A stretch of 64,000 bases of DNA from a virus. The stretch is from the IMG/VR virus record IMGVR_UViG_3300042691_049879, positions 1 through 64,000 of that record, one strand, 5' to 3'. A model generated the notes under the pieces. It did no database searches. It saw only the letters and a list, made by a program, of their open reading frames with translations, and had not been told where the DNA came from. Each line of letters starts with the position of its first letter. Position 1 is the first letter of the stretch. Below are positions 8,734 to 41,603 of the stretch, one piece after another. The position numbers and the translations under genes were made by a program.

Positions 8734-9957
8734 TTATATTAAAGATAAAAATCTTTCATAATTTGCCTTATCTATTTCAAAGCCAAGCTCTTTTCCTTGA
8801 ATTGGAATTTGCCCAGATTCAATTTTATTTTGTACTTCTGGTAAATCTTTTATTTTTAATTTATCAAAATTATATAATGATTTCGCTATATTTTTATCGA
8901 TTTTATTTATTTCAGACCAAATAATAAAATCTTTTTCATCAACAGAGTCTTTAATTGACTCTTTTGCTGTTAAAAGTTTTGAAAAAGAATTTATGTCAAT
9001 TAAATATGATTCTGATTTTTTAAAATCTGTAAATAACTTTAAAAAATCTAATAAAAATTTAATAGCTCTTTTTTCTTCATTATTATATTTCATTTCAGTC
9101 AATGTTGATACTACCGATTCAACATTATTGTTTTTAAGAATAAAAGAAACTACAAGAATAGGATTTTTACTACTTATAAAATTAGTGTTTATATTTAATT
9201 TTGGAAACATTCTTTTCATTATCCCAAAATTGTATAAGTCATTTAAAAAAACTTTTGGTTCTTTTGATTTTTTTAATCCAGCATAAAACTCATCTCTAAT
9301 TCTTTCACTTGAAACGCCTGGCATTTCACTGTATTTTAAAATCGCTTTTTTTGTTTTATCATCCAAGTCTCCACCAGTAATATTTTTAAATCTAATAGCT
9401 CTCATTATTCTAAGCCTATCTTCATAAAATCTTTCTTCTGGTTCGCCTACAGTTTTTATTGTGCCAGTTAATAAATCATCAACCCCACCATGAAAATCTA
9501 TGATTTTATTTTCATCAACATCATAATATAAAGCATTTATAGTTAAATCTCTTCTATTGGCATCTTGTTCTATGGTTGAATGCTTAACTTCAGTCGGCCT
9601 TCTACCACTTCCATCATAACTTTCAGACCTAAAAGTTGCTATTTCAACTTCTTCACCATTTATAATAGCAGATACAACGCCAAATGCTTCTCCTTTAGGG
9701 AAATTGTCTATATTGTTTTTATTTAATATGTCAACAACTTCTTCTGGTGTTGCTTCAGTTGCTACATCATAATCTTTTGGCGTCTTTTTTTGTAAAGAAT
9801 CTCTTACTGCGCCTCCAACAACATAAATTTTATAGCCAGAGTCTTTAAAAGCATTATTCAAAACTTCAATTTCATATGGCAGGTCCATCTTAAAAGAAAT
9901 CTCTTTAGTTTCTTTTAAGATTCCAGATAAAAACATATTTCTTCTAACGTTATTCAT
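8734..9957 (-). CDS. cca: CCA-adding tRNA nucleotidyltransferase, 407 aa
   Basis: Adds or repairs the 3' CCA of tRNAs from CTP and ATP. Class II motifs are present: YVVGGAVRDSL (45-54), the metal-binding DYD in KDYDVATEATPEEV (61-74), RRDLTINAL, DFHGGVDDL and the RRxxRxxRF-type neck EDRLRIMRAIRF. The family also includes poly(A) polymerases. The tRNA setting favours CCA addition, because most tRNAs in this window do not encode CCA. -7-like TAAATTTG lies only a few bases upstream of the ATG, so the mRNA may be nearly leaderless. Confidence 0.85.
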   Translation of the reverse strand: MNNVRRNMFLSGILKETKEISFKMDLPYEIEVLNNAFKDSGYKIYVVGGAVRDSLQKKTPKDYDVATEATPEEVVDILNKNNIDNFPKGEAFGVVSAIINGEEVEIATFRSESYDGSGRRPTEVKHSTIEQDANRRDLTINALYYDVDENKIIDFHGGVDDLLTGTIKTVGEPEERFYEDRLRIMRAIRFKNITGGDLDDKTKKAILKYSEMPGVSSERIRDEFYAGLKKSKEPKVFLNDLYNFGIMKRMFPKLNINTNFISSKNPILVVSFILKNNNVESVVSTLTEMKYNNEEKRAIKFLLDFLKLFTDFKKSESYLIDINSFSKLLTAKESIKDSVDEKDFIIWSEINKIDKNIAKSLYNFDKLKIKDLPEVQNKIESGQIPIQGKELGFEIDKANYERFLSLI

Positions 9958-10019: not shown

Positions 10020-11843
10020 TTATTTTGAAGCATTTGGATTTGGAACAAAAACCATAGAATTTAAATCTAAAATAAATTTCTTACTTTCATTTAAGAAATC
10101 TTTTTCATAAAACTTTTGTTTAATCCCAAAAATACTTCCAGGCTTTTCTACCTCAATAGTGTTTTCTTTCTTTGATTCGTTTAAAGTGTAATCTTTTGAC
10201 TCATTTACTAAACTTACTTTTTCTTCAAAGAAAGAATTGTAATCATCTATATTATCTAATACAGAACTCATTTCTTCAGCTTCTTTTATGGTCTCAAATT
10301 TACTGAAAGTAGATAGTTTTTTCCATCTTTCTTGTTCATATTCTTGACTAGTCTTTTCAGTAACTATATAACGCTTATTTATGCCTTTAACTTCATTTTC
10401 TGTAAGAGATGAAAATCTTCTTTTTCTAAGTCTTTCTATTCTGTCAGCTTCGCTTTCATTAAGACCCATTCTTTTCATTTTATCATGGTCTTTACCAACA
10501 GTTCTTTCAAGTTCTTCTTTGCTGTTAGGCTCAACGAAAGGCATCCCTTGTGGGTGATAGTTAGGGTCAACTTTTACAACTTGAGTATAAGGCTTGCTTG
10601 CTTGTACTTTTCTTTCCTCTGGAATTATATTCCAATTTTTATCTACTTTAGGTCTGGAAGTTTGTGCTTTAGAATAAGGAGTTTTTTCAAATGATTTCTT
10701 TCTTGATTCGCTTAAAGTTTCTCCTTCCTCATAAATAGGATGATTTACTGGAATATTGTATGGTGCGCCAACATCAGACTTTTTGCCTCCCTTAGATTTA
10801 TTTGCAAACTTTCTTGAAACATTTTTTGCAAACCATTTTGTTAAGTAAGAACCAGCACCAGCTCCGCCAGGGCCAGACATAGTAATTTCTTCAATAGTTT
10901 CTTTTTTTAATGAATTAAAGAAATCCTTTTTTTCTGCATCTGTTAAATCTGAAACATCTCCATCTTTAGCTCCATATTCATCTTCAAGTCTTTTTTTGAA
11001 TTCTTTAGCTTCTTCTACGCCAAATTCCTTAATCATTTCTTCAAAATTAATTTCTTCATCATCAAACAAAAGATTAACATCATCTTTTCCGTCTAATGGC
11101 AAAGTGTTTAATTTTTTAACTGCAGGAATATTTTCTTCCTCATCATCAGAAAGTCTTTCAAAACCTTCATTTTCGTTTATTTTCCCTTTTGAAAAGTCTA
11201 AATCATCTTCAAAAAGACTTTTAAGTGTTAATTTTTTCATATTTAAATTTTCAACAATTGATGTAGTACTTTCTTCGAATCTATCTTCGACTCCAAGTTT
11301 AGTGTTTGTTAAATAACCAACTTCTCTTTCTGCAGCGTCTGTAAGTTCATCTTTTAAAACCTTATCTGCATCTTTTAAAGGTACTGATATTTTTTTTCTT
11401 ACCATAAAAGTTTTTCCTTCATCATCAACTCCTCTAAAAAATCCTGCTTCAGGACTTCTATATTGAATATGGAGAATTTTTCCTTTTATTTCAAAGTCAA
11501 GTTGTGACTCAACTCTTTTTGTGCCAATTATTATTTGTTTTTCAAAAGTTCCATTACCATGGCCATGACTCATATTTAATGAGCTACTAAACTTTCTAGG
11601 TCTAGCCGTTATAATTACATTATACTGATTTTCTTCAACTCCAGTTCCATAAGTTGTTCCGTCTCCATAAACTCCAGCTACTTTATTATTTTTTTCATAT
11701 CCAAGATTTTCAATTACTTTTTCTGTAGTTGTTCTAAGCAATTCTTTTATCTTCTCAAAAGTATCATGAGTATTTGATTCTAGACCTGAAAAATCTTTGT
11801 TAGATTTTTCTTCACCATTTTTTATATCTTCCATATCGGCCAT
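10020..11843 (-). CDS. probable virion structural protein, 607 aa
   Basis: Not assigned to a known family. It starts ADMEDIKNGEEKSNKDF. Residues 60-180 are beta-rich (GVYGDGTTYGTGVEEN, VSVP-type strands). The rest is low-complexity, charged and helical. It contains the leader-like segment TLKSLFEDDLDF and several LNES/VNES steps (LNESEADRIE, LNESKK) that fit a prohead-protease L-x-E rule. A TATATTTATATTAAAAA motif, like that before other suspected late genes, precedes the gene. Confidence 0.5.
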   Translation of the reverse strand: MADMEDIKNGEEKSNKDFSGLESNTHDTFEKIKELLRTTTEKVIENLGYEKNNKVAGVYGDGTTYGTGVEENQYNVIITARPRKFSSSLNMSHGHGNGTFEKQIIIGTKRVESQLDFEIKGKILHIQYRSPEAGFFRGVDDEGKTFMVRKKISVPLKDADKVLKDELTDAAEREVGYLTNTKLGVEDRFEESTTSIVENLNMKKLTLKSLFEDDLDFSKGKINENEGFERLSDDEEENIPAVKKLNTLPLDGKDDVNLLFDDEEINFEEMIKEFGVEEAKEFKKRLEDEYGAKDGDVSDLTDAEKKDFFNSLKKETIEEITMSGPGGAGAGSYLTKWFAKNVSRKFANKSKGGKKSDVGAPYNIPVNHPIYEEGETLSESRKKSFEKTPYSKAQTSRPKVDKNWNIIPEERKVQASKPYTQVVKVDPNYHPQGMPFVEPNSKEELERTVGKDHDKMKRMGLNESEADRIERLRKRRFSSLTENEVKGINKRYIVTEKTSQEYEQERWKKLSTFSKFETIKEAEEMSSVLDNIDDYNSFFEEKVSLVNESKDYTLNESKKENTIEVEKPGSIFGIKQKFYEKDFLNESKKFILDLNSMVFVPNPNASK

Positions 11844-25232: not shown

Positions 25233-25468
25233 TATTTGTAAATATTTCCTATCGTTCTAGAACTTACTCCTATTGGTTGGCCAAAATTTTCAAAAAAACT
25301 TGAATAATCATTAATTTCTACAGGAATATTTTTTGGATTTTTAGAACTGTTTAAACTTAAATTAAAAGCAGGGCTAGCAACTAAATCATAAGAAAAAACA
25401 GTATAATCAGTTTCTGCAAAAAAAAGTTTTTCTTTTTTCTCTAACAATAATTTTCTATAATATATCAT
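25232..25468 (-). CDS. LLxEKK-motif protein, 78 aa
   Basis: Opens IYYRKLLLEKKEKLFFAE, one of six copies of a basic-aromatic, LL-x-E-K motif spread over three adjacent genes. The remaining sequence is serine/asparagine-rich and beta-like. Its start overlaps the stop of 25465-25836 (ATGA-type overlap). I infer that the motif is a processing site (L-x-E, the T4 gp21-type rule) that releases small head peptides. Confidence 0.5.
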   Translation of the reverse strand: MIYYRKLLLEKKEKLFFAETDYTVFSYDLVASPAFNLSLNSSKNPKNIPVEINDYSSFFENFGQPIGVSSRTIGNIYK

Positions 25469-25836
25469 AAATTAGAATATTTTATATTTGGACCTCTTCT
25501 TGAACGTCTTGTCCTATATTTCTTATACTTTTCTATCAACAATTCTCTTCTGTATTCATTTTCTTTTTCATATTCAAAATCAATATAGTGAAGTAATCCT
25601 GTAGGAGCACTTAATGGTTGCACACTAACTAAATCAGTACCTATAGTAGAAGCAAAAACTCTTCTAACTAAAGGCATTGTTAATGTGCCAAAATCAAAAG
25701 AAAATTTTTTCTTTTTTTCAAACAACAACTCTCTTTTAAAAATGTTATCTGTTTTATTTTTAGATTCTGTTTCAATAACTGTATTGTTAAGAATTTTTGT
25801 CCAAGAATCAAGGTAATGTTTTAAGGTTGAACTCAT
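25465..25836 (-). CDS. LLxEKK-motif protein with two motifs, 123 aa
   Basis: Two motif copies: FKRELLFEKKKKFSFD (about 28-43) and YRRELLIEKYKKYRTRR (about 95-111). The first is followed by FGTLTMPLVRRVFAS, similar to the VRFPIVNRRF end of the 170-aa neighbour. The C-terminus is very basic. Middle gene of a three-gene minus-strand set. Confidence 0.5.
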   Translation of the reverse strand: MSSTLKHYLDSWTKILNNTVIETESKNKTDNIFKRELLFEKKKKFSFDFGTLTMPLVRRVFASTIGTDLVSVQPLSAPTGLLHYIDFEYEKENEYRRELLIEKYKKYRTRRSRRGPNIKYSNL

Positions 25837-25847
25837 TTTTTTTGTTA

Positions 25848-26360
25848 TTAACTAAATCTTCTATTAACTATTGGAAATCTAACTGCACCATATGGATTTT
25901 GATATTTTTTTTCATATAAAAGATTTCTTTTATACTTTGACTTTTTATTGGCAATATGATTTATTTTTTGTTTTTTTATCTTATCTAAGCTAATAGAATT
26001 GTCTGAACTAAGATTGAAATTTAATAAAGAAATTATTTCTCTATCAATTTCTTTTGCTATTTGTTCAGACAAAAGTTTTGTCAATTCTTCTTCAGCGCTA
26101 AATGTTTTAGGCTTATATGTTTCAATTAAAAGAAATCTTTTATATACATTATTTGACTTATAACTTAATTTTTCAAGTTCTTTTTCTGAATCAACACTAT
26201 AATATGAATGAACATCTTGAGCTAATTCAGGAGTCCATGTGCACTTTAATTTTCTTGGTTCTGAATTTACAACTACCGACTTTAACTGAAAAGTATAGTG
26301 TTTTTTTTCTAACAATAAAACTCTTAAATATTTTTTAGACATATTACAATTATACGACAA
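25848..26360 (-). CDS. LLxEKK-motif protein with three motifs, 170 aa
   Basis: Three motif copies: YLRVLLLEKKHYTF (about 11-24), YKRFLLIETYKPKTF (about 69-83) and YKRNLLYEKKYQNPYG (about 147-162). The sequences between motifs differ. The arrangement looks like a small polyprotein cut after LLxE, but this is inference. First gene of the set; no membrane segment or enzyme motif. Confidence 0.5.
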   Translation of the reverse strand: MSYNCNMSKKYLRVLLLEKKHYTFQLKSVVVNSEPRKLKCTWTPELAQDVHSYYSVDSEKELEKLSYKSNNVYKRFLLIETYKPKTFSAEEELTKLLSEQIAKEIDREIISLLNFNLSSDNSISLDKIKKQKINHIANKKSKYKRNLLYEKKYQNPYGAVRFPIVNRRFS

Positions 26361-26553: not shown

Positions 26554-27021
26554 TTGGAAAATTTAAGAAAAATAATTAGACAAATTTTAAAAGAATATGT
26601 TGAACATTCAACAGTATTGTCTAATTATGAATTTTACGCTTCTCCTTACGTAGTTTCAAAAATGCTTAATGACATAAGAAATGTTGGAAAACATTTAGAT
26701 TCTAACTTTCTAAAAAATATAGAAGGCTTACAAGTCCTTTCCATAAATGAAAGAGATGGTAAATTGGTTTGTGAAATAGGATATCCAGATGGAACAGTTG
26801 TACTATTTTATAAATCTGGGAGGGGTACTAGTGGTAAACAAAAAGGGTCCTGGTTTCCAATACCTGGTTTTACAAGAAATGCTTTTGAAAATCGTGGACA
26901 AATATTTCCAGAAGGTTGGTTTGTAAAAGGTTCTCTATCAGAAGTTTCTAATAGATACGGCAGTAGAGTTTTTAATTATACTGCCGATTATCTATTAGCT
27001 AATGAAAATGAAATTTTTTGA
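26554..27021 (+). CDS. suspected head-packaged protein, 155 aa, TTG start
   Basis: The leader ENLRKIIRQILKEYVEHS matches the class I motif and nearly matches the 40058-40558 protein (ENLRHLIRQIIKESF), which supports the TTG start directly abutting the preceding stop. The body has beta-rich stretches (LVCEIGYPDGTVVLFYKSG) and a WFPIPGF segment. Its stop overlaps the 3' end of the convergent RNase P RNA gene by about 2 bases. Confidence 0.55.
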   Translation: MENLRKIIRQILKEYVEHSTVLSNYEFYASPYVVSKMLNDIRNVGKHLDSNFLKNIEGLQVLSINERDGKLVCEIGYPDGTVVLFYKSGRGTSGKQKGSWFPIPGFTRNAFENRGQIFPEGWFVKGSLSEVSNRYGSRVFNYTADYLLANENEIF

Positions 27022-27275
27022 CAAAAAACGAGCGTAACCCACATTCTGTTTTAATTCATCATTTATCTTTGCCGCCAACCCGACATCATAGAACAGCTCA
27101 CCTTCTCTGTCTGTTTGCGTTGCATCCTCGGCAGTAAAAGCGACTTGGTAAAGATTCGAACTTTACTATCCCTGCAAATGGGTTATTGCCAATTAATTTT
27201 ATCTAAGTCTCCTGCCTTAAGCTGTGATGTGTGGAGTTTCCTCTCTTTCGAGCGATGAATCCTCTTTTTTCTGTC
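27020..27275 (-). ncRNA. rnpB: RNase P RNA (class A-like, compact)
   Basis: Catalytic RNA that trims tRNA 5' leaders. On the minus strand the 5' part has GAGGAAACTCCACAC (the universal CR-I GAGGAAAGTCC box). The 3' part has AGATAAATGATGAATT followed by ACAGAATGTGGGTTA, matching AGATnAATGAC...ACAGAAcccGGxTTA (CR-V). The P4 pairing is kept (CCACA with TGTGG). The ends pair as a long P1 (GACAgAAAAAA...GAG with CTCgTTTTTTGTC). At about 256 nt it is shorter than typical bacterial RNAs. It is placed beside a tRNA array and a CCA enzyme. No rnpA was found, so host protein is presumably used. Confidence 0.85.
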
Positions 27276-27286
27276 AAATATTTATA

Positions 27287-27694
27287 TTATGCTAAAACTT
27301 CTTCAGCCACTTTTCTTACCTCAGAATTATCTGCTTTTCCCTGAAACTTTTTATTGAACGCTCCCATAATCATTCCAATATTATTAGCGCCATCATTAAC
27401 AATAATTTCAACTTCTTTTCTCACTTCTTCTGTTGTCATTAATTTAGGCAAATAATCATTTAGTATATTAAGTTGAAATTCAGATTCAACGTCTCCAGAC
27501 TTAATTGATTCTTTAAGAGATTTTTCAACTTTCTTTAAAATGCTCATAACATTTTCGTCAGTTGATTCAACTCCTCTTCCTTCAGCATTTTGAATTTCAC
27601 CTTTAATAACTCCAAGAAAATTCTTTTTTTCCATTTCTTTGCTCTTAAAGGCTGTCATAAAATCTTGATTGATTTTTTCTTTTAAAGTTGTCAT
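27287..27694 (-). CDS. YqeY/GatB-tail-like protein, 135 aa
   Basis: Helical protein of the YqeY family, related to the C-terminal tail of the amidotransferase subunit GatB that grips tRNA. Diagnostic segments are LKESIKSG, LNILNDYLPKLM (the LxxYLPxxL motif) and GMIMGAFNKKFQGKAD near the C-terminus. It is slightly shorter than the usual 148 aa. The position between rnpB and tRNA genes supports a tRNA-linked role. The biochemical function of the family is not settled. Confidence 0.8.
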   Translation of the reverse strand: MTTLKEKINQDFMTAFKSKEMEKKNFLGVIKGEIQNAEGRGVESTDENVMSILKKVEKSLKESIKSGDVESEFQLNILNDYLPKLMTTEEVRKEVEIIVNDGANNIGMIMGAFNKKFQGKADNSEVRKVAEEVLA

Positions 27695-27766
27695 AATATT
27701 TTTTTACTAATTAATTTTTATAATACAAATTTAAACATAAAATTGCAGAACAAAAAATTTTAATTG

Positions 27767-27838
27767 AGACAGCGAAGAGAATCGAACTCTTCTAAATGGG
27801 TTTGCAATCCATCACCTCTGCCGCTCGGTCACGCTGTC
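27767..27838 (-). tRNA. tRNA-Cys (GCA)
   Basis: Acceptor GACAGCG/CGCTGTC, discriminator T, T arm AAGAG-TTCGATT-CTCTT, anticodon loop TTGCAAA. One A-C mismatch closes the anticodon stem. The trailer begins CA, not CCA. Confidence 0.9.
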
Positions 27839-27843
27839 ATTAT

Positions 27844-27921
27844 TGGAGCCTTATGAGGGACTCAAACCCCCGACCTGCTGAGTACAAATCAGCTGCTCTA
27901 AGTCAACTGAGCTAATAAGGC
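27844..27921 (-). tRNA. tRNA-Thr (TGT)
   Basis: Acceptor GCCTTAT/ATAAGGC, anticodon arm GCTGA-TTTGTAC-TCAGC, T loop TTTGAGT. CCA is encoded. Confidence 0.92.
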
Positions 27922-27931
27922 ATTATATATG

Positions 27932-28005
27932 TACTCCCAGAAAGATTCAAACTTTCAACCTCCGAATCCGTAGTTCGGCACTCTATTCAATTGAGCTATA
28001 GGAGC
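27932..28005 (-). tRNA. tRNA-Arg (ACG)
   Basis: Acceptor GCTCCTA/TGGGAGT, anticodon arm CCGAA-CTACGGA-TTCGG, T arm GAAAG-TTTGAAT-CTTTC. The trailer begins CA. A34 would need deamination to inosine, as for host tRNA-Arg(ACG). Confidence 0.92.
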
Positions 28006-28013
28006 ATTTATTG

Positions 28014-28087
28014 TACGCCTAAGTGGAATTGAACCACTGACCTCTTGATTATCAGTCAAGTGCTCTAACCAACTGAGCTATAGGCGT
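28014..28087 (-). tRNA. tRNA-Ile (GAT)
   Basis: Acceptor ACGCCTA/TAGGCGT, anticodon arm CTTGA-CTGATAA-TCAAG, T arm AGTGG-TTCAATT-CCACT. The trailer begins CA. Confidence 0.93.
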
Positions 28088-28093
28088 ATGTTG

Positions 28094-28166
28094 CGCACCA
28101 GGCAAGATTCGAACTCGCAACTACTAGTTTTGGAGGCTAGTACCCATACCATAGGGTCTCTGATGC
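28094..28166 (-). tRNA. tRNA-Trp (CCA anticodon)
   Basis: Acceptor GCATCAG/CTGGTGC, discriminator G as in known tRNA-Trp, anticodon loop CTCCAAA, T arm GCGAG-TTCGAAT-CTTGC. The trailer begins CA. Confidence 0.92.
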
Positions 28167-28173
28167 ATTTTGT

Positions 28174-28242
28174 AGCTCAAACAAACATTTAATTAAGCTC
28201 AACTTAAAATATTAATGAGCTTTAAATATTACTTTTTGAGCT
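28174..28242 (-). other. nested inverted repeat between tRNA-Trp and tRNA-Gly
   Basis: The outer arms AGCTCAAA/TTTGAGCT enclose inner arms AAGCTCA/TGAGCTT. This AT-rich two-tier hairpin may be a spacer RNA or a processing signal. No coding potential was seen. Confidence 0.4.
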
Positions 28243-28250
28243 GTATTTTG

Positions 28251-28323
28251 AGCAAGAGATGGGGTTCAAACCCACGGCCTTCTGAGTGGAAGTCAGATGC
28301 TCTATCAACTGAGCTACTCTTGC
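28251..28323 (-). tRNA. tRNA-Gly (TCC)
   Basis: Acceptor GCAAGAG/CTCTTGC, anticodon arm TCTGA-CTTCCAC-TCAGA, T arm GTGGG-TTTGAAC-CCCAT. The trailer begins CA. Confidence 0.93.
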
Positions 28324-28331
28324 ATATGTTG

Positions 28332-28409
28332 TGGGGATAGAAGGACTCGAACCTCCGTGTGGTATGCTTGATTTACAGTCAAGTGCAGTCGCCGCTGTGC
28401 CATATCCCC
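28332..28409 (-). tRNA. tRNA-Tyr (GTA)
   Basis: Acceptor GGGGATA/TATCCCC, anticodon arm CTTGA-CTGTAAA-TCAAG, T loop TTCGAGT. The extended variable region is typical of bacterial tRNA-Tyr. The trailer begins CA. Confidence 0.92.
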
Positions 28410-28466
28410 ATTTTCCGATTTTCTTTAATTTTCAGTTTGCGGTATCGGACTACCATTTCTGCTACG

Positions 28467-28592
28467 TGGACGGAGCTAGATTCGAACTAACATTAACCAT
28501 TTAGGTGTTTAGTGTACTGCTAAACTTGCTTGCCGACAATCGAGGTTTGGAATAGGCGATAATCCAAACTGACATGCCATTGCCATCCGTCC
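28467..28592 (-). tRNA. tRNA-like RNA, 126 nt, anticodon not assignable
   Basis: A perfect acceptor stem (GGACGGA/TCCGTCC), discriminator A and a 5-bp T arm (GTTAG-TTCGAAT-CTAGC) are clear. The core is far too long and holds two hairpins (GTTTGGA...TCCAAAC and GTTTAG-CAGTACA-CTAAAC). Neither has a canonical U33 anticodon loop. It could be a tRNA with an insertion, or a tRNA-mimicking RNA. A GGCAAG element is present, as in similar RNAs near 39.0 and 41.2 kb. Confidence 0.55.
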
Positions 28593-28595
28593 TTA

Positions 28596-28672
28596 TGGTG
28601 GAGCTGGGCGGGCTCAAACCGCCGACCCCTGCAGTGCAAGTGCAGTGCTCTAGTCAACTGAGCTACAACCCC
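28596..28672 (-). tRNA. tRNA-Ala (TGC)
   Basis: Acceptor GGGGTTG/CAGCTCC with the G3-U70 identity pair, anticodon arm CTGCA-CTTGCAC-TGCAG, T arm GGCGG-TTTGAGC-CCGCC. CCA is encoded. Confidence 0.95.
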
Positions 28673-28680
28673 ATAATAAT

Positions 28681-29626
28681 TAAAAGCTTGAGACTACAGC
28701 TTTTGCAACAATACTTTCATCCTTACATTCCTTTAAGTGCTACCTTATTGGTTTGAGATTTATCCACAGTGTCCCTTTCAGGTATCTGTATATTGTCATC
28801 GCTGCCTTTTTTGAAGAGTGGCATTTCTCTTATCAATACTAACTACTCGACATTTCGAATCATCACCTGTCTTGCGGACATTAATTACGCTTTTAACGCT
28901 TATTAGAAAATCTTCTACTTTATCAAACGACTTTCCCTTGCGAGGTCCATCGCTCCTGTTATCTTAAAGACCAGGAATTAAGCGACTTTTCGTTTAGTAT
29001 TTGTTCCAGACTTTTGCTTTTAATTTGCTTGATGAAGGAGTTGAACCTTCGACCTATTGTTTAAGAGACAATCACTCTACCAACTGAGTTAATCTAGCTT
29101 TTTTACCTACTAAGTTGTGCTGGAACCATTGCTTCATTCTCTTTTGAAGAACAAAATACAACACAACTCTATGCGTTTCGGCTTGCGGCCTACTGTACAG
29201 AAATTAACTTTAATTTTCATCAAAGCTTATTCAAGATTACTACGACAACTTTAACATCATCGCCTCACCTCTCATTCTGGAGTCTAGCCCTTGATTTGCG
29301 GTCTCGAACAGTACTCCTACACCTTATCCATACTCTAGACTACGTGACTTGGATATGATAGATAACGCATCCCTGCATCTATTTGTGTCCAGCATCGCCT
29401 AACACTTATCCTTTCCAAAGGACTATCTAATCACTTACGCCTTTCACTCCGCTTGGTTACGAAGTCTGCTGTTGGCAGCAGGGGACGGTGCTTGCTTGAA
29501 TTGACCATAAAATGGCGGGTAGTTGTAGGCAACTTTCCCCTTCACATCATTGCTGATGTTTATCTTTCTTCGTGACGCCATAAGACATCACAACCTTCTC
29601 AAGCAAAGGTAATTTTTTTAATATTT
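28681..29626 (-). ncRNA. giant structured RNA with embedded tRNA, GOLLD-like
   Basis: About 945 nt without a credible ORF but with many local and long-range pairings on the minus strand. Examples are GCTTGA/TCAAGC near the 5' end, CTGCTG-CCAA-CAGCAG and a closing 3' hairpin AAAGCT...AGCTTT at 28681. A tRNA-Lys gene lies inside it. Size, position inside a phage tRNA array, and an internal tRNA are the known marks of GOLLD RNAs (Giant, Ornate, Lake- and Lactobacillales-Derived), which occur in phages and can form RNA-only assemblies. ROOL, a relative class in similar settings, is the alternative. A boxA-like element lies just upstream. Exact ends are estimates. Confidence 0.65.
29026..29098 (-). 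tRNA. tRNA-Lys (CTT) inside the giant RNA
   Basis: Acceptor GCTAGAT/ATCAAGC with one A-A mismatch, D arm ACTC...GAGT, anticodon arm ATTGT-CTCTTAA-ACAAT, T arm GAAGG-TTCAACT-CCTTC. The trailer is AA, so CCA must be added. Confidence 0.85.
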
Positions 29627-29635
29627 CAAAGAACT
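29626..29635 (-). promoter_or_regulatory. boxA-like element before giant RNA
   Basis: The minus strand reads AAGTTCTTTGAAAT between tRNA-Pro and the giant RNA, matching the other boxA-like sites of the window. Confidence 0.5.
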
Positions 29636-29644
29636 TATTTTCAG

Positions 29645-29720
29645 TAGGGTAGACAGGGCTCGAACCTGCAGTAATGTCCTCATCCCAAATGAGGCGACTT
29701 GCCAATTAGTCTACTACCCT
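29645..29720 (-). tRNA. tRNA-Pro (TGG)
   Basis: Acceptor AGGGTAG/CTACCCT, D arm GAC...GTC with TTGGCAA loop, anticodon arm CCTCA-TTTGGGA-TGAGG, T loop TTCGAGC. CCA is not encoded. Confidence 0.9.
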
Positions 29721-36593: not shown

Positions 36594-36672
36594 ATAATTT
36601 ATTTTATAATTATAAATAATTATTTTTTTTTATTTAAAAACTATTCAATTTATTATTTTTTTTATTTTAAAG

Positions 36673-36756
36673 TAGCGGAGGTCGGACTCGAACCGACGGG
36701 GTCTTTCGACACAAGGTTATGAGCCTTGCCAGCTACCAACTACTTACTACTCCGCA
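36673..36756 (-). tRNA. tRNA with CAT anticodon and long variable arm
   Basis: Anticodon arm CAAGG-CTCATAA-CCTTG, T arm GTCGG-TTCGAGT-CCGAC, acceptor TGCGGAG/CTCCGCT with an unpaired first position. A 14-nt variable arm folds as GTC-GAAA-GAC, which is not expected in Met or Ile tRNAs. The D arm is short, with extra bases before it. The unpaired 1-72 recalls initiator tRNA. Identity is uncertain. Confidence 0.7.
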
Positions 36757-36764
36757 ATATATTG

Positions 36765-36838
36765 TAGCGAGAGACAGAATCGAACTGTCGACCTTGGGGT
36801 TATGACTCCCACGCTCTAGCCAACTGAGCTATCTCGCC
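36765..36838 (-). tRNA. tRNA-Met (CAT)
   Basis: Acceptor GGCGAGA/TCTCGCT, D arm GCTC...GAGC, anticodon loop GTCATAA, T arm GACAG-TTCGATT-CTGTC. The trailer begins CA. Confidence 0.88.
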
Positions 36839-36855
36839 ATAAATTAAAGCCTACA

Positions 36856-36999
36856 TTAAGTAAGCTTTAATTTTTTTAAGAAGGATTTAATTTTTTTTAT
36901 TCTTCTTATTTTTCTGATTTTATTTGCTCGTTCAAAAATTAAACGAACTTTTTTATCAATCTTTCCTTCTCTCTCTGACACACTTAACACTTCTCTCAT
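36856..36999 (-). CDS. small basic helical protein, 47 aa
   Basis: ATG to TAA open frame between tRNA and protein genes. The product begins REVLSVSEREGKIDKKVRLI and continues as a very basic helix (RKIRRIKKIKSFLKKLK). Not recognised. The strong charge pattern supports coding, but it is short. Confidence 0.45.
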   Translation of the reverse strand: MREVLSVSEREGKIDKKVRLIFERANKIRKIRRIKKIKSFLKKLKLT

Positions 37000-37015
37000 A
37001 TCTATTTGTTTTTAT

Positions 37016-37084
37016 TTATTCTTTTTTATCTGGAAGCTTTGAATCCAATTCATTTATTAACCAATATGGACTTCCACCTTCTAC
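37016..37084 (-). pseudogene. in-frame open extension beyond a TAA stop, 22 codons
   Basis: After the TAA of the 87-aa gene the same frame encodes VEGGSPYWLINELDSKLPDK and ends at TAA 37016. The peptide looks protein-like. Either the gene recently gained a stop, or the stop is sometimes read through. Confidence 0.35.
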
Positions 37085-37348
37085 TTAATGTATTTCGTTG
37101 AAACCATTTTCTTTAGTAATTAAAGACTCTTCTTCAGTTATTGAGCCAGAATGTTTTCCTGCACCTTTTTTATTTTCAATATTACCAGTACTAGGATTAT
37201 AACTGCCCCAATCAGCCATTCTATCATTTCCTATTGTTTCAATAAAATATTTTTTACCAGTTCTATAAGAAACAACAATCTCTCTTCCAGTTTCATCTCT
37301 ATTAATCAAAAAGTTTTTTAATACTTCTTCTTTTATATTTCTTTTCAT
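37085..37348 (-). CDS. small orphan protein, 87 aa, possibly truncated
   Basis: Leader KRNIKEEVLKNFLINRDETG, then a beta segment (EIVVSYRTGKKYFIETIG) and WGSYNPSTGNIENKKG. Not recognised. The frame stays open for 22 further codons after the stop, so the original protein may have been about 110 aa. Confidence 0.5.
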   Translation of the reverse strand: MKRNIKEEVLKNFLINRDETGREIVVSYRTGKKYFIETIGNDRMADWGSYNPSTGNIENKKGAGKHSGSITEEESLITKENGFNEIH

Positions 37349-37359
37349 TTTAAGTCATT

Positions 37360-37551
37360 TTAAAGTTCAAACGAGTGTGATTTGCCACACTCGTTACACT
37401 TTACGTCAATGTAAGTGTAAGACCAGTCTTCGTAATAATTACCTTGACTGATATATGGATTTTGAATTTCTTGTCTTATTTTTTTATTTTCTGTTGGACA
37501 AGTAAACTCAATTTCAATCACATGTCTAATTGTCGTACATCCTTTTAACAT
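37360..37551 (-). CDS. small zinc-binding-like protein, 63 aa
   Basis: Start chosen at ATG 37551 (LKGCTTIRHVIEIEFTCP); a longer upstream frame would run through tRNA-Gly. A cysteine near residue 19 and the pair CNECGKSH near the C-terminus suggest a zinc ribbon. Function unknown. Confidence 0.5.
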   Translation of the reverse strand: MLKGCTTIRHVIEIEFTCPTENKKIRQEIQNPYISQGNYYEDWSYTYIDVKCNECGKSHSFEL

Positions 37552-37572
37552 GACTTTTAATTTTAGTTTTTG

Positions 37573-37646
37573 AGCAAGAGATGGGATTCCAACCCACGAC
37601 CCCAACCTTGGCAAGGTTGTGCTCTAAGCAGCTGAGCTACTCTTGC
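37573..37646 (-). tRNA. tRNA-Gly (GCC)
   Basis: Acceptor GCAAGAG/CTCTTGC, identical to tRNA-Gly(TCC) at 28251. Anticodon arm CAACC-TTGCCAA-GGTTG, T arm GTGGG-TTGGAAT-CCCAT. The trailer begins CA. Confidence 0.92.
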
Positions 37647-37655
37647 TTATTGTTG

Positions 37656-37729
37656 CTCTCCCGCCTGGGCTCGAACCAGGGACCCTCTGATTAACAGTCA
37701 GATGCTCTAACCAACTGAGCTACAGGAGA
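37656..37729 (-). tRNA. tRNA-Asn (GTT)
   Basis: Acceptor TCTCCTG/CGGGAGA, discriminator G, anticodon arm TCTGA-CTGTTAA-TCAGA, T arm CCTGG-TTCGAGC-CCAGG. The trailer begins CA. Confidence 0.93.
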
Positions 37730-37747
37730 TTGTATTTACATTATTTG

Positions 37748-37823
37748 CGGTCCCACACGGATTCGAACCGAGCTGAAATCCTCCGTGACAGGGAGGTGGC
37801 CACACCAAGCAGCCCCTGAGACC
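37748..37823 (-). tRNA. tRNA-Asp (GTC)
   Basis: Acceptor GGTCTCA/TGGGACC, discriminator G, anticodon arm CCTCC-CTGTCAC-GGAGG, T loop TTCGAAT. The trailer begins CA. Confidence 0.9.
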
Positions 37824-37842
37824 TTTTTTTTTACAAAAAGTG

Positions 37843-37916
37843 GGTGAATAGTCGGAATCGAACCGACGACACAAGGAACCACAATCCTATGCTCTGCCTA
37901 CTGAGCTATATCCACC
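37843..37916 (-). tRNA. tRNA-His (GTG)
   Basis: Acceptor GTGGATA/TATTCAC with G at -1 and C73, the tRNA-His identity pair. Anticodon loop TTGTGGT, T arm GTCGG-TTCGATT-CCGAC. Confidence 0.92.
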
Positions 37917-37964
37917 ATATTAAAACTTACTTTTTTCACATTAATCGGAATTTAGATTGTGCTT

Positions 37965-38039
37965 TTTACCTTGTTGGAGTCGAACCAACATTCTCTCGGC
38001 TAACCGCCGAGCGCCCTACCAATTTACTACCAAAGGTAA
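37965..38039 (-). tRNA. atypical tRNA with non-U33 anticodon loop
   Basis: Acceptor TTACCTT/AAGGTAA and T arm GTTGG-TTCGACT-CCAAC are good. The anticodon arm is CTCGG-CGGTTAG-CCGAG: position 33 is G and a sixth stem pair can shrink the loop to GGTTA. Canonical numbering gives anticodon GTT, duplicating tRNA-Asn; other registers would give TTA. The D stem pairs poorly. Confidence 0.6.
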
Positions 38040-38060
38040 GTAAGTTTTTTATTTTAAATT

Positions 38061-38070
38061 CAAAGAACGT
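38061..38070 (-). promoter_or_regulatory. boxA-like element between tRNAs
   Basis: The minus strand reads ACGTTCTTTGAATTT between tRNA-Lys (38082) and the atypical tRNA. Confidence 0.45.
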
Positions 38071-38081
38071 TTTCTTTTTTG

Positions 38082-38155
38082 TTCCCCCGACAAGATTCGA
38101 ACTTGTGGCCCTTCCATTAAAAGTGGAATGCTCTAACCTGCTGAGCTACGAGGGA
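38082..38155 (-). tRNA. tRNA-Lys (TTT), first
   Basis: Acceptor TCCCTCG/CGGGGGA, anticodon arm TTCCA-CTTTTAA-TGGAA, T arm ACAAG-TTCGAAT-CTTGT. The trailer begins CA. Confidence 0.93.
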
Positions 38156-38163
38156 ATAATTTG

Positions 38164-38236
38164 TGCGCCCAGCAAGATTCGAACTTGCGACCCCCGCATT
38201 AAAAGTGCGGTGCTCTACCAACTAAGCTATGAGCGC
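38164..38236 (-). tRNA. tRNA-Lys (TTT), second
   Basis: Acceptor GCGCTCA/TGGGCGC, anticodon arm CCGCA-CTTTTAA-TGCGG, T arm GCAAG-TTCGAAT-CTTGC. Stems differ from the first copy, so it is not a recent duplicate. Confidence 0.93.
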
Positions 38237-38293
38237 ATTTTGATTTGGGATTCGCTCACACTTATTAGTAGAGTGAATCCCTAAAGTTTATAT

Positions 38294-38548
38294 TTAAATT
38301 TCTTTTTCATTTTCTTCAATTTCTTTTAATACTTCTTTTAAAGCTTCTCTTTTAATTTTATTTCTTTCTTTTCTGTATTTGTAATATGAACACATTTCAC
38401 AACTACATGGTGTCGATGTAGATTTCATCCAATAATAAAATTCTCCATCATTAAAAAATTGTTTAACTCTCTTTTTAACTTTTTTAGCTAAATCTTTCCT
38501 TCTTTTTGCTCTTTTGTAATTTTTCATTTTTACCTCAGTTTTTGCCAA
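38294..38548 (-). CDS. small basic Cys-rich protein, 84 aa
   Basis: A lysine/arginine-rich N-terminus (NYKRAKRRKDLAKKVKKRVK) precedes the motif CSCEMCSYYKYRKER (about 49-63). CSCxMC followed by basic/aromatic residues is a small protein type I recognise from Bacteroidetes and phages, often near tRNA genes, probably zinc-binding; function unknown. A second ATG at codon 8 is also plausible. Confidence 0.6.
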   Translation of the reverse strand: MAKTEVKMKNYKRAKRRKDLAKKVKKRVKQFFNDGEFYYWMKSTSTPCSCEMCSYYKYRKERNKIKREALKEVLKEIEENEKEI

Positions 38549-38610
38549 TTACTCTTGAGCCAAGTAACTAGCTTGTTATATGAGGTATCTAATTCTACAA
38601 TTTTTCATTT

Positions 38611-38823
38611 TTATATTTTTAAAGTCACTAACACATAAGCATTTACATACTTACCGTCATTTATAAATTTTAGTTCATTATAAACATATCCTTTTTTAAC
38701 AGCCATTTTTTCAAGTTCATCATAATAATCATCGAAGAACTCTTCAAAATCTTGTTTTTTTATTTTCTTTAGAAATATCAAACGTTCTTCGTCTGGTATT
38801 TCATTTATTTTTACTTTAGGCAT
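38611..38823 (-). CDS. small orphan protein, 70 aa
   Basis: PKVKINEIPDEERLIFLKKI is followed by an acidic helix and a beta end (FINDGKYVNAYVLVTLKI). Not recognised. It lies inside the tRNA region. Confidence 0.5.
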   Translation of the reverse strand: MPKVKINEIPDEERLIFLKKIKKQDFEEFFDDYYDELEKMAVKKGYVYNELKFINDGKYVNAYVLVTLKI

Positions 38824-38848
38824 AATATTACCTTTTAGTTTTTAAGTG

Positions 38849-38937
38849 CGGAGAAGAGAGGATTCGAACCTCCGATACCAGTTTCCCAGTATGCCTTCTT
38901 AGCAGGAAGGTGCTTTTAGCCACTCAGCCACTTCTCC
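38849..38937 (-). tRNA. tRNA-Ser (GCT)
   Basis: Class II tRNA. Acceptor GGAGAAG/CTTCTCC, discriminator G, anticodon arm CCTTC-CTGCTAA-GAAGG, long variable arm ACTGGGAAACTGGT-like. The trailer begins CA. Confidence 0.93.
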
Positions 38938-39013
38938 AAAACGCTACCCCGTAAGTAGCGAGGGCAATGTACGGCCTTGCCAAGCCAGAGTATTTACCCT
39001 TTGGGTAAACCAG
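38938..39013 (-). ncRNA. three-hairpin spacer RNA between two tRNA-Ser genes
   Basis: The minus strand shows TTTACCC-AAA-GGGTAAA, GGCAA-GGCCGTACA-TTGCC and CGCTAC-TTACGGG-GTAGCG in succession. It shares TTGGCAAGG(C/A)CGTACA with the tRNA-like RNA at 41210. It could be a spacer with processing signals or a small RNA. Confidence 0.45.
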
Positions 39014-39102
39014 AGGAGAGAGAGGGATTCGAACCCCCGTTACCTTTTACGGTAAGTCTGTTTTCAAGACAGGTGCAATAAGCCAGACTCTGCCATCTCT
39101 CC
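39014..39102 (-). tRNA. tRNA-Ser (TGA)
   Basis: Acceptor GGAGAGA/TCTCTCC, discriminator T (unusual for Ser), anticodon arm CCTGT-CTTGAAA-ACAGA, long variable arm TTACC-GTAAAA-GGTAA. CCA is not encoded. Confidence 0.9.
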
Positions 39103-39107
39103 ATTAT

Positions 39108-39117
39108 TCAAAGAACT
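39108..39117 (-). promoter_or_regulatory. boxA-like element before tRNA-Ser
   Basis: The minus strand reads AAAGTTCTTTGAATAA between the stop of 39118-39624 and the tRNA-Ser pair. Confidence 0.5.
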
Positions 39118-39624
39118 TTAAATTTCAACTTTCCACATAGGGACAAATCCTGCATATCTATCATTTACAACATCTTCCCAGTGGTCTAGCCAACCATCCA
39201 TTCCAAATTGTTGTTGACCTGGAGCTAAGAACATATCTTTTTCTTTAACCCATTTAGCTTGTCCACTAAATCTTGCAACTCTCTTTGCCTCTTCATTGCA
39301 ATCATACCAAGCTCCATCTTCAAGTTGTTCTTTTGGAATAGCTATTTTTAATAAATCTAAATCTCTTTTTCTATTATGTTCAACTATTTGAACAGCTTTT
39401 TCCCAAAGTTCAGCTCCAGTAATATTTTTCCTAATTGTTTCAATTTTTTTTAAAACCTCGTTTGGTTTTTCTCCTTTATCTATTAATTCTTTTATTTTGT
39501 TGTTCCAAGTTTCTTCATTATCCATTTCTACAAACTTTTCAACTTTCTTGTTGGCATAATATTCACCATAATTTGCGTTTATAAGTCTATCGTACCATTC
39601 TTTATATTTTCCTTTAAATTCCAT
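39118..39624 (-). CDS. orphan protein at head of tRNA unit, 168 aa
   Basis: Not recognised. The N-terminus EFKGKYKEWYDRLINANYGE is helical and aromatic. The C-terminal part contains YDCNEEAKRVARFSGQAKWV and GMDGWLDHWEDVV. There is no membrane segment. It follows an attenuator-like leader and is the first gene of a unit continuing into tRNA-Ser genes, so it is probably co-transcribed with them. Confidence 0.55.
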   Translation of the reverse strand: MEFKGKYKEWYDRLINANYGEYYANKKVEKFVEMDNEETWNNKIKELIDKGEKPNEVLKKIETIRKNITGAELWEKAVQIVEHNRKRDLDLLKIAIPKEQLEDGAWYDCNEEAKRVARFSGQAKWVKEKDMFLAPGQQQFGMDGWLDHWEDVVNDRYAGFVPMWKVEI

Positions 39625-39640
39625 AACTCAATTTTTTTCA

Positions 39641-39873
39641 AAAAAAAACCCGAACTTTTTCGGTTCGGGTGTCTTATTTCTTTTCAGTTATATTATTAAC
39701 TTTTAAAAGTTGCTAAAGCACACCCTTATAAACCCTGATTTGTTATCATCATGATTCTTCTTTACATTCCCACTCATTTTCGAAGTGGAAACCAAAGTTG
39801 CGATATGTGTACTTGTAAGTTGCAAAATTTTATTTTTTATAATTGTTAATAAATATATCTGTTTTTTTAAAAC
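39641..39873 (-). promoter_or_regulatory. second attenuator-like leader
   Basis: Terminator CCCGAAC-CGAAAAA-GTTCGGG followed by eight T (39641-39669). Its 5' side ACACCC can instead pair with GGGTGT in the leader (39719-39725). A hairpin CCACT...AGTGG and three GCAACTT repeats lie further upstream. The plan matches the leader at 29766-29990. Confidence 0.5.
39703..39777 (-). CDS. possible leader peptide, 24 aa
   Basis: ATG to TAA, product SGNVKKNHDDNKSGFIRVCF. It overlaps the antiterminator strand as the 35-aa frame does in the other leader, but no sequence similarity is evident. Confidence 0.25.
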   Translation of the reverse strand: MSGNVKKNHDDNKSGFIRVCFSNF

Positions 39874-39879
39874 CCGATA

Positions 39880-39910
39880 CAAATGTAAAACTTTTTTTTT
39901 AATTTACAAT
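39880..39910 (-). promoter_or_regulatory. Bacteroidetes-type promoter for second leader
   Basis: TACATTTG on the minus strand (39880-39887), preceded after 19 nt by ATTG in place of TTTG. It fits the other tRNA-unit promoters. Confidence 0.5.
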
Positions 39911-40057
39911 AATTATAACGACTTTTTTTTAAAAAAATTACAAAAAAAATTAAAAAAAAACTATAAGTTATTGATTTACAGTATTTTATAATAATTATTT
40001 TTTTTGTATAAATTCATAATTTAAAAGCATTTAAAAAAAAAGTTAATATTTATTATT

Positions 40058-40558
40058 ATGGAAAAAGAAAATTTAAGACATTTAATAAGACAAATTATAA
40101 AGGAGTCTTTCAATAATGTAGAAGAAGGTTCTGGAAGTCATTCTGACGCTAAAGAGATGAGAAAAACTCTTAAATGGATTAGTAAAAATCTTGAAGGAAT
40201 AAAAATAGAAGAAGTTGGAGACGGCCATAGAATTTGTCCACCAATAGACAAATCAGATGAATGTTATACTGTGCACAGAGGGGGAAAAGGAATATATGAT
40301 TTATATAGATTTTTAGCAAAAGCATATAATGTAAATAAGCATGATATAGAATACGCAGTTAGCTCAAATAGACCATTAAATTTAACGTCTGTTAATCCTG
40401 AAGAATTAGCAATTATGAAAAAAGTTAATTTGTCTGGGAAGGATTGGTATATAGATGAAAAGGAACAAAGATTAATAATGGTGAAAAATTTAAATAAAAT
40501 TAAAAATTTTGATGATTTAGATTTTGATGAATACGAAAAAGTAATTGAAGCATTATAA
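40058..40558 (+). CDS. suspected head-packaged protein, class I leader, 166 aa
   Basis: The leader EKENLRHLIRQIIKESFNNV closely resembles the leader at 26554 (ENLRKIIRQILKEY). The body contains GIKIEEVGDGHRICPPIDKS and TVHRGGKGIYDLYRFL, a compact alpha/beta domain not recognised. ATATTTAT begins 12 bases before the ATG. The only + gene within this tRNA region. Confidence 0.5.
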   Translation: MEKENLRHLIRQIIKESFNNVEEGSGSHSDAKEMRKTLKWISKNLEGIKIEEVGDGHRICPPIDKSDECYTVHRGGKGIYDLYRFLAKAYNVNKHDIEYAVSSNRPLNLTSVNPEELAIMKKVNLSGKDWYIDEKEQRLIMVKNLNKIKNFDDLDFDEYEKVIEAL

Positions 40559-40561
40559 AAA

Positions 40562-40583
40562 ATGCCCGAATTACTTCGGGCAT
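40562..40583. terminator. bidirectional terminator
   Basis: ATGCCCGAA-TTAC-TTCGGGCAT with T-rich flank after the 166-aa gene. Confidence 0.8.
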
Positions 40584-40592
40584 TTTCTTTTT

Positions 40593-40680
40593 AGAGATTA
40601 TTCGAACTTCTCAAAAACCTTACCTAAAATAACATTTAATACTGTGAGGATTATTCGAACTTCCTCAAAACCTTACCTAG
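40593..40680 (-). repeat. two tandem tRNA T-arm-like fragments
   Basis: About 35 bases around GATTATTCGAACTT are repeated with few changes, 53 bases apart. On the minus strand each reads as GAG(G)AAGTTCGAATAATC(C)TC, a T-arm-like hairpin without the rest of a tRNA. Probably remnants of tRNA duplication. Confidence 0.45.
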
Positions 40681-40691
40681 AAACTGATGTG

Positions 40692-40765
40692 TGGTCCCAG
40701 CAGGGCTTGAACCTGCGACCCCCTGATTATGAGTCAGGTGCTCTGACCAGCTGAGCTATAGGACC
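40692..40765 (-). tRNA. tRNA with CAT anticodon (Met or Ile2)
   Basis: Acceptor GGTCCTA/TGGGACC, anticodon arm CCTGA-CTCATAA-TCAGG, T arm GCAGG-TTCAAGC-CCTGC. The trailer begins CA. Sequence alone does not separate elongator Met from lysidine-modified Ile. Confidence 0.9.
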
Positions 40766-40767
40766 AA

Positions 40768-40970
40768 AAATGGCTATCTGTTGATGCAAACAATTTACCT
40801 TGACTAGTATTTGGTAAACCCGTTAAGTCTATCATCTTTTATCTATATTCTACCCTATGTATAGGGGTGACATTAACAGAAACTCCTCACACTAGATATC
40901 CTCACACGGATTTGTGCCCTGGTAGAGCTAGTGATATGTTTGGAGCTTATCGCCAATTTTTCAAAAAACT
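40768..40970 (-). ncRNA. structured RNA of unknown class, about 200 nt
   Basis: No credible ORF. The minus strand shows nested pairings: AAAAAT-TGGC with GCCATTTTT at the ends, CTCC...GGAG, CACTAG/CTAGTG, CACA...TGTG, CCCTA-TACA-TAGGG and TTTACC...GGTAAA. It lies between tRNA-Met and the pseudoknotted element at 40980. Confidence 0.45.
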
Positions 40971-40979
40971 TTTTTTAAA

Positions 40980-41110
40980 ATGATATATAGACGTGCAAGG
41001 TAATGGTTTGCAGCCCGTATTAACACGTAACTTTTCTCTGATGAGTGTGTATCTGCAAAGCTACACAACTGCCTCCATACGAATCAGAAATAAGCGACTC
41101 TATATATCAT
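40980..41110 (-). ncRNA. pseudoknotted RNA closed by a 12-bp stem
   Basis: On the minus strand a perfect 12-bp closing stem (ATGATATATAGA/TCTATATATCAT) encloses TTTCTGAT/ATCAGAgAAA and TGTGTA...TACACA. The hairpin loop TTTGCAG is complementary to CTGCAAA downstream, and CGTAT to ATACG, predicting pseudoknots. It does not look like a tRNA, tmRNA or RNase P RNA. Confidence 0.55.
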
Positions 41111-41115
41111 TCTTG

Positions 41116-41199
41116 TGGTATAGGGTGGAATCGAACCACCGACAAGTCAGACGTACATTACTGCCCTTGCCCCAGGTTTGCTAGCTATTTTACTATACC
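41116..41199 (-). tRNA. tRNA-like RNA A, non-canonical core
   Basis: Perfect acceptor GGTATAG/CTATACC, discriminator A, trailer CA and T arm GGTGG-TTCGATT-CCACC. The 50-nt core gives no canonical D or anticodon arm. The best pairing is GCAAG/CTTGT around a 19-nt loop. Confidence 0.55.
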
Positions 41200-41209
41200 A
41201 TATATTAAA

Positions 41210-41299
41210 ATTCAATGGTGGGATTCGAACCCTAAAGAGTCAACATTAAACTCACCCTCCTGTACGTCCTTGCCAAACAAGATAACTTTCCTCATTGAA
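41210..41299 (-). tRNA. tRNA-like RNA B, non-canonical core
   Basis: Acceptor TTCAATG/CATTGAA and TTCGAAT T loop with a shortened GGG/CCC stem. The core has CTTG-TTTGG-CAAG and GAGT...ACTC hairpins but no clear anticodon loop. It shares TTGGCAAGGACGTACA with the spacer RNA at 38938. Confidence 0.5.
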
Positions 41300-41306
41300 T
41301 TTTTTA

Positions 41307-41362
41307 AATTTTAGGGGGAACAATGTTAATTTCCCTAGTACAGGTGCTCCTAAAATTTATTG
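41307..41362 (-). other. inverted repeat between tRNA-Arg and tRNA-like B
   Basis: AAATTTTAGG and CCTAAAATTT arms enclose about 35 bases with an inner GGGAA...TTCCC stem. It is the only content of the gap between the two RNA genes. Confidence 0.4.
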
Positions 41363-41436
41363 TACACCCACCAGGATTCAAACCTGGGACCTATTCATTA
41401 GAAGTGAATTGCTCTATTCAGCTGAGCTATGGGTGC
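41363..41436 (-). tRNA. tRNA-Arg (TCT)
   Basis: Acceptor GCACCCA/TGGGTGT, anticodon arm ATTCA-CTTCTAA-TGAAT, T arm CCAGG-TTTGAAT-CCTGG. The trailer begins CA. Confidence 0.92.
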
Positions 41437-41447
41437 ATTTTAATCTT

Positions 41448-41457
41448 TCAAAGAACT
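41448..41457 (-). promoter_or_regulatory. boxA-like element before tRNA-Arg
   Basis: The minus strand reads GAAAGTTCTTTGAAAG between the promoter at 41478 and tRNA-Arg. Confidence 0.55.
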
Positions 41458-41477
41458 TTCATTGTTTATTGTAACGA

Positions 41478-41508
41478 CAAATGTAAAACTTTATTACAAT
41501 AAAACAAA
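41478..41508 (-). promoter_or_regulatory. Bacteroidetes-type promoter for tRNA array
   Basis: The minus strand has TTTG (41505-41508), exactly 19 nt, TACATTTG (41478-41485), identical in both boxes and spacing to the site at 191-221. boxA-like and tRNA-Arg follow. Confidence 0.75.
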
Positions 41509-41531
41509 AAAAAATTAATTTTTTATTTTTG

Positions 41532-41603
41532 TACTCTAGAAGGGAATTGAACCCTCACCTTCATATTATAAGTATGATGCTCTGACCACTGAGCTACTAG
41601 AGT
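41532..41603 (-). tRNA. tRNA-Ile (TAT)
   Basis: Acceptor ACTCTAG/CTAGAGT, anticodon arm TCATA-CTTATAA-TATGA, T arm GAGGG-TTCAATT-CCCTT. Anticodon UAU is rare in bacteria, which usually read AUA with lysidine-modified CAU. The trailer begins CA. Confidence 0.88.

Follow-up and report, generated by a model that had tools for sequence, protein, structure and literature searches.

A predicted RNase P RNA without specificity domain beside tRNA genes in a phage genome

The RNA of RNase P counts among the ribozymes that are considered essential to cells. In bacterial RNAs of class A (RF00010), helices P1-P5 and P7, P15 with its GGU loop, the boxes CR-I, CR-IV and CR-V and a bulged U in P4 are combined with P8-P14, CR-II and CR-III. 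Type T (or type P) archaeal RNase P RNAs, found in Pyrobaculum/Thermoproteaceae, consist of the C domain only, the specificity (S) domain being nearly gone (PMC4919922, PMC7191817). The E. coli RPR deprived of S-domain residues 94-204 left one pre-tRNA uncut and retained cleavage of pre-4.5S RNA (PMC11143913); an enzyme made up of the C domain only may thus have low activity or act on selected substrates. The diverged RNase P RNAs described from CPR bacteria are chromosomal and lack P12, P13, P14 or P18, P16/P17 or the UGG motif; in the portion of the source drawn on here, loss of the whole S domain is not described (PMC8172020). Phage theta ribozymes, which are enriched with tRNA nucleotidyltransferase, are small, HDV-like and self-cleaving in cis at tRNA 3' ends, and are not RNase P (PMC10879173).

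The window analysed here, 64 kb in length, is the first part of a linear, incomplete IMG/VR viral contig of 68.8 kb, in which gp23-related proteins, a helicase, a primase, a lysozyme and a RuvC-like resolvase indicate phage character. Judged by homology and covariation, it encodes a real RNase P RNA on its minus strand, at positions 27017-27278 (Table 1); the extent of 27020-27275 given in the initial annotation was nearly right. CR-I, CR-V, the P4 pairing (CCACA/UGUGG) and the long P1 named there are all present on this strand, as are CR-IV and the bulged U of P4. The RNA was also called compact, which it is, on account of a complete loss of the S domain that had gone unmentioned. With class A, it shares P1-P5, P7, P15 with the GGU loop, the three boxes and the bulged U; in contrast to class A, the phage RNAs are devoid of P8-P14, CR-II and CR-III, measure only ~200-262 nt, and are phage-borne with no RnpA gene found. 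As in type T/P archaeal RNAs, only the C domain is left, but the phage RNA lies beside bacterial-type tRNA arrays, has a bacterial-style core and L15, and presumably pairs with one RnpA, whereas the archaeal form pairs with several proteins. Because of this bacterial-style core and the phage context, the resemblance to type T/P is likely convergent. The likeness to the CPR RNAs consists in missing helices and in detection only under the model cut-offs (PMC8172020); that to theta ribozymes consists in a phage ribozyme being tied to tRNA maturation (PMC10879173).

Table 1. Features of the predicted RNase P RNA and of its surroundings (positions in the window)
Feature	Position	Strand	Remarks
Predicted phage RNase P RNA gene, P1 5' strand to P1 3' strand	27017-27278	-	262 nt; covariance-model matches and boxes
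P1 5' strand	27262-27278	-	17 nt; P1 duplex predicted in five phages, sequences differ
P1 3' strand	27017-27032	-	16 nt; last 5 nt overlap 3' end of convergent ORF 26554-27021
P2 5' strand	27254-27261	-	both sides changed in 3 of the 5 P2 pairs (five phages)
P2 3' strand	27053-27060	-	covariation
P3 hairpin CUC-GAAA-GAG	27243-27252	-	longer hairpins in L008 and L082
CR-I and P4 5' strand with bulged U (AC-U-CCACA)	27229-27243	-	CR-I is GAGGAAACUCC at 27233-27243
CR-V and P4 3' strand	27035-27049	-	CR-V is ACAGAAUGUGGGUUA
P5 5' strand	27226-27229	-	pairs with 27123-27126
P7-like stem, 5' strand GGCAG	27212-27216	-	pairs with CUGCC at 27130-27134
Filler replacing the S domain	27135-27211	-	77 nt; without CR-II/CR-III
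P15 with L15 GGU (27100-27102)	27082-27111	-	P15 covariation; expected to bind tRNA 3' end
CR-IV-like AGAUAAAUGA	27059-27068	-	sequence
yqeY (GatB/YqeY family)	27287-27694	-	PF09424, E = 1.8e-18; directly upstream, same strand
Array of 10 tRNA genes, likely substrates	27766-29720	-	upstream, same strand
Second group of 13 tRNA genes, likely substrates	36672-41603	-	tRNA calls
CCA-adding enzyme (tRNA nucleotidyltransferase)	8734-9957	-	phrog_2244, E = 1e-55; PF01743
Single-chain phenylalanyl-tRNA synthetase, PheS-like core and FDX-ACB	6101-7129	-	PF01409, E = 2.5e-58; PF03147, E = 6e-22

At the curated gathering thresholds of Rfam, the RNA of the window is not reported. With the class A model, RNaseP_bact_a, it scores 43.5 bits, the cut-off being 100 (E = 8e-14, whole record), and RNaseP_arch aligns with it end to end at 54.1 bits (E = 1.8e-14, locus stretch searched alone). 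The strong covariance-model match anticipated earlier was thus obtained in terms of significant E-values, but not in terms of the Rfam thresholds. A covariance model, R1, was built from the RNAs of L008, L083, L080 and L126 only, the window being excluded. It matches the locus with 132.9 bits (E = 4e-26), the next-best match in the window scoring 16.6 bits, and scores 151.5, 103 and 94 bits in other phages (G060, L123 and L026, respectively); phage RNAs outside the class of the window receive 18-56 bits. Scanning IMG/VR with a signature of CR-I followed by GCTTAAGNNNGGAG gave five matches, all of them RNase P RNAs, and a second scan by the CR-I-to-CR-V spacing yielded two further RNAs, L123 and L126. 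The single-sequence folding energy of the window RNA is unremarkable and uninformative (z = -0.31), and the case therefore rests on homology and covariation.

For the assessment of covariation, the RNA of the window was aligned to those of L008, L082, L083 and L080, helices P2, P3, P4, P5, P7 and P15 being considered. In these five phages, 98.1% of the pair cells are paired, compared with 27-44% in controls with slid partners; 15 of the 32 pairs have changed on both sides, which was matched by none of 500 shuffles, and compensatory changes occur in all seven helices counted. P4 is changed on both sides at four of its seven pairs with all cells remaining paired, one pair being C-G in the window, G-C in L008 and A-U in L082, and the P7-like stem reads GGCAG/CUGCC, GGAAG/CUUCC or GGUGG/CCACC in different phages. 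Strong pairing of P1 is seen in each of the five despite different sequences, and RNAalifold recovers P2, P3, P5, P7 and P15 unaided. The catalytic-core boxes are invariant across seven phages, as is GGUGAGC in the L15 region, which includes the GGU typical of class A. The initial annotation had named the loss of P2 or P4 in homologous phages as an observation that would speak against it; no such loss is seen, both helices being kept with compensatory changes. Its proposal of an RNase P RNA gene in a phage record is thus borne out by covariance-model matches together with helices that compensatory change has preserved.

The filler is enclosed by the two strands of the P7-like stem, precisely where bacterial RNase P RNA holds its S domain, and the S domain with CR-II and CR-III that belongs to class A is absent. 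In other phages, the filler has a length of 69 nt (L008), 42 nt (L082), 20 nt (L083) or 19 nt (L126) with no common sequence, and the class includes shorter RNAs of 198 nt (G061) and 200 nt (G064). Since the S-domain site holds only unrelated filler, the class is C-domain only. The filler of the window contains a perfect T-arm-like hairpin (UAAAG-UUCGAAU-CUUUA) and resembles, by eye, a tRNA-Gln(UUG); its derivation from a tRNA was rejected, as there is no Rfam tRNA match at E-values up to 10 and local alignment to the phage tRNAs scores 35, compared with 39 at random places of the window. Scanned for the S-less signature, the genomes of 84,980 bacterial and archaeal species returned no such RNase P RNA, a result that covers the form defined by this narrow signature, other S-less cellular forms being possible. 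Ten matches in cellular genomes are due to chance, because all of them lack both CR-V and an RNase P fold; R1 gives no match at these ten loci.

By pattern scans combined with the class A or R1 models, RNase P RNA was found in ~42 other IMG/VR records, a count that includes two pairs of identical sequences and the weak L072. Together with four cultured phages that also carry one, these records make the term 'rare', applied to phage RNase P RNA at the outset, too strong. In 30 of the ~42 records, at least five tRNA genes lie in the same locus. A terminase domain is present in 8 of 39 records, including the 527-kb G058; the viral origin of the remaining ones is that assigned by IMG/VR, and some could be misassigned. 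In L002, the RNA directly abuts tRNA genes on both sides, so that cutting the next tRNA would also create the 3' end of the RNA itself. Among cultured isolates, two tRNA-Pro genes of Microbacterium phage A3Wally are separated by an unannotated gap, which is exactly filled by a match of 72 bits; copies that are 91-92% identical to it, likewise unannotated, occur in Big4, Zooman and a fourth Microbacterium phage. A3Wally, Big4 and Zooman are phages of Microbacterium foliorum. In the uncultured 484-kb phage LR756508, the RNA ends against a tRNA-Ser. XacN1, phage G, Atu_ph07, KVP40, T4, T5 and phiCbK gave no match under stricter filters, which also missed Big4 and Zooman. In open full-text papers, the literature covered here as distinct from preprints and subscription papers, no earlier report of a phage RNase P RNA was found, and RNase P is unmentioned in Al-Shayeb 2020 and in a 2026 jumbo-phage review; provisionally, phage RNase P RNA is considered to be without earlier report.

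The adjoining tRNA array pointed out in the initial annotation was confirmed as 10 genes, and the tRNA genes of the window total 23. Records from two other metagenomes, G007 (79 kb) and G060 (72 kb), are syntenic with the window, sharing 51 and 55 orthologues, respectively, in largely collinear order, and both keep the succession of yqeY and RNase P RNA. In G060, no tRNA gene was found from yqeY to the next conserved gene, as opposed to 10 in the window. Seeking relatives by way of the CCA-adding enzyme yielded none.

RnpA (PF00825) was detected in none of 37 IMG/VR records and in none of four of a second set, one record being in both; this search covered 39 IMG/VR records and A3Wally (40 in total), mostly fragments, and found RnpA in 10 of 14 control genomes. 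In the records searched, the RNA is hence not accompanied by an encoded RnpA as in the two-part bacterial holoenzyme. This absence is consistent with the use of host RnpA; as the record of the window is an incomplete fragment, RnpA or another protein partner could also lie beyond it. As far as can be judged from sequence, the locus probably specifies a C-domain-only RNA subunit for a hybrid RNase P of phage and host, which would mature phage tRNAs. Transcription would probably run behind yqeY in the direction of the tRNA array, and the RNA would fold via P1-P5, the short P7-like stem and P15. Host RnpA is the presumable partner, because no phage RnpA gene was found, and the resulting hybrid enzyme would cut the 5' leaders of phage pre-tRNAs. 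Anchoring of the CCA or of the discriminator end would fall to the GGU of L15; without the S domain, T-loop recognition would be lost and affinity lowered, and the phage CCA-adding enzyme would complete the tRNA 3' ends. On balance, it is plausible that phages have evolved a class of RNase P RNA of their own: bacterial-derived, C-domain only (down to ~200 nt), spread across unrelated tRNA-array phages, forming a hybrid enzyme with host RnpA and not occurring in cellular genomes.

The main rival to a tRNA-maturing hybrid enzyme is a decoy, in which the phage RNA titrates host RnpA (or pre-tRNA) and thereby weakens host RNase P and tRNA supply, so that phage tRNAs take over. No phage RnpA was found, as a decoy would have it, and S-domain loss could leave an RnpA-binding core; a pure protein sponge, however, needs neither the catalytic P4 core nor the bulged U nor the GGU of L15, all of which selection maintains, and the position in or near tRNA genes fits tRNA maturation. 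The conserved active site argues against a decoy, which appears unlikely. The RNA may otherwise be a specialised ribozyme for different substrates, e.g. phage mRNA, tmRNA or 4.5S-like RNAs, and not serve general pre-tRNA maturation, which would be in keeping with the substrates cut and left uncut by the truncated E. coli RPR (PMC11143913); with the repeated tRNA-gene association across unrelated phages and the CCA-adding enzyme speaking against it, such a specialisation is distinctly improbable.

The scores below the Rfam gathering cut-offs and the missing S domain could also be those of a degenerate relic of host rnpB, or of host DNA misplaced in a viral contig. Neither, however, accords with the compensatory changes in every helix counted, with the numerous orthologues that flank the RNA in the records of two other metagenomes, or with a variant that the signature used did not detect in prokaryote genomes. 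Covariation and synteny largely refute this origin, which is highly improbable.

If maturation of phage tRNAs by a hybrid RNase P is correct, the repeated occurrence of the RNA, unannotated even in cultured isolates, means that the initial step in the maturation of tRNAs can pass into the hands of phages. With the S-less form, nature would provide an equivalent of the C-domain constructs made in laboratories, and a Pyrobaculum-like minimal architecture would have been reached a second time, apparently independently, here with a bacterial-style core. Natural S-less sequences make the role of the S domain directly testable and have a bearing on why phages carry tRNAs.

Several phages seem to have in common a second reduced form of the S domain, in which a motif like CCACTAAGC...AAGCAATGGTG replaces CR-II/III (L021, L029, L031, L032, L081, L005, L006, L010, L076, L112:3997-4212 and the Microbacterium phages). 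On the minus strand of L081, a 27-codon ORF with an AGGAGG site is nested inside the RNase P RNA gene, its product, MEIIAGVVIGTLFVLLLVKLIILNLSR, being a likely membrane peptide; an ORF-like insert occurs in L080 as well. L124 (190.7-kb record, locus 10630-10786) has an RNase P RNA of ~207 nt (118.5 bits) that seems to be shortened differently from the class of the window. In G021 (202.7-kb record; L093), a 20-kb stretch holds 64 tRNA genes and a tmRNA, with an RNase P RNA located among them. Some candidates were discarded: pattern matches with neither tRNAs nor covariance-model support (e.g. L116-L122) are coincidences in coding sequence, and the blastn match in Rheinheimera Barba phages is 23 nt of low complexity with no covariance-model match. 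Microcystis phage MaAM05 (MW495066.1, L113) was left out of the count, since its neighbouring genes fabI, engB, mtgA and glyS look bacterial; its RNA is a full class A RNase P RNA (251.8 bits), and the deposit is possibly bacterial sequence.

In the window, two neighbouring small proteins (25465-25836 and 25848-26360) match short pieces of gp23, the major capsid protein of T4, the piece differing between the two; they are conserved in G007 and G060 and may be capsid fragments or mimics. Similar short helical N-terminal motifs (M..xELxxIIKE / SESYKKRLKELAGLI) are found in plus-strand proteins at 22531, 24516, 26554, 30145, 34188, 40058, 44211 and 50476 and in further proteins at 30747, 48677, 49057 and 52141; by eye, these motifs resemble capsid-targeting leader peptides of internal virion proteins.
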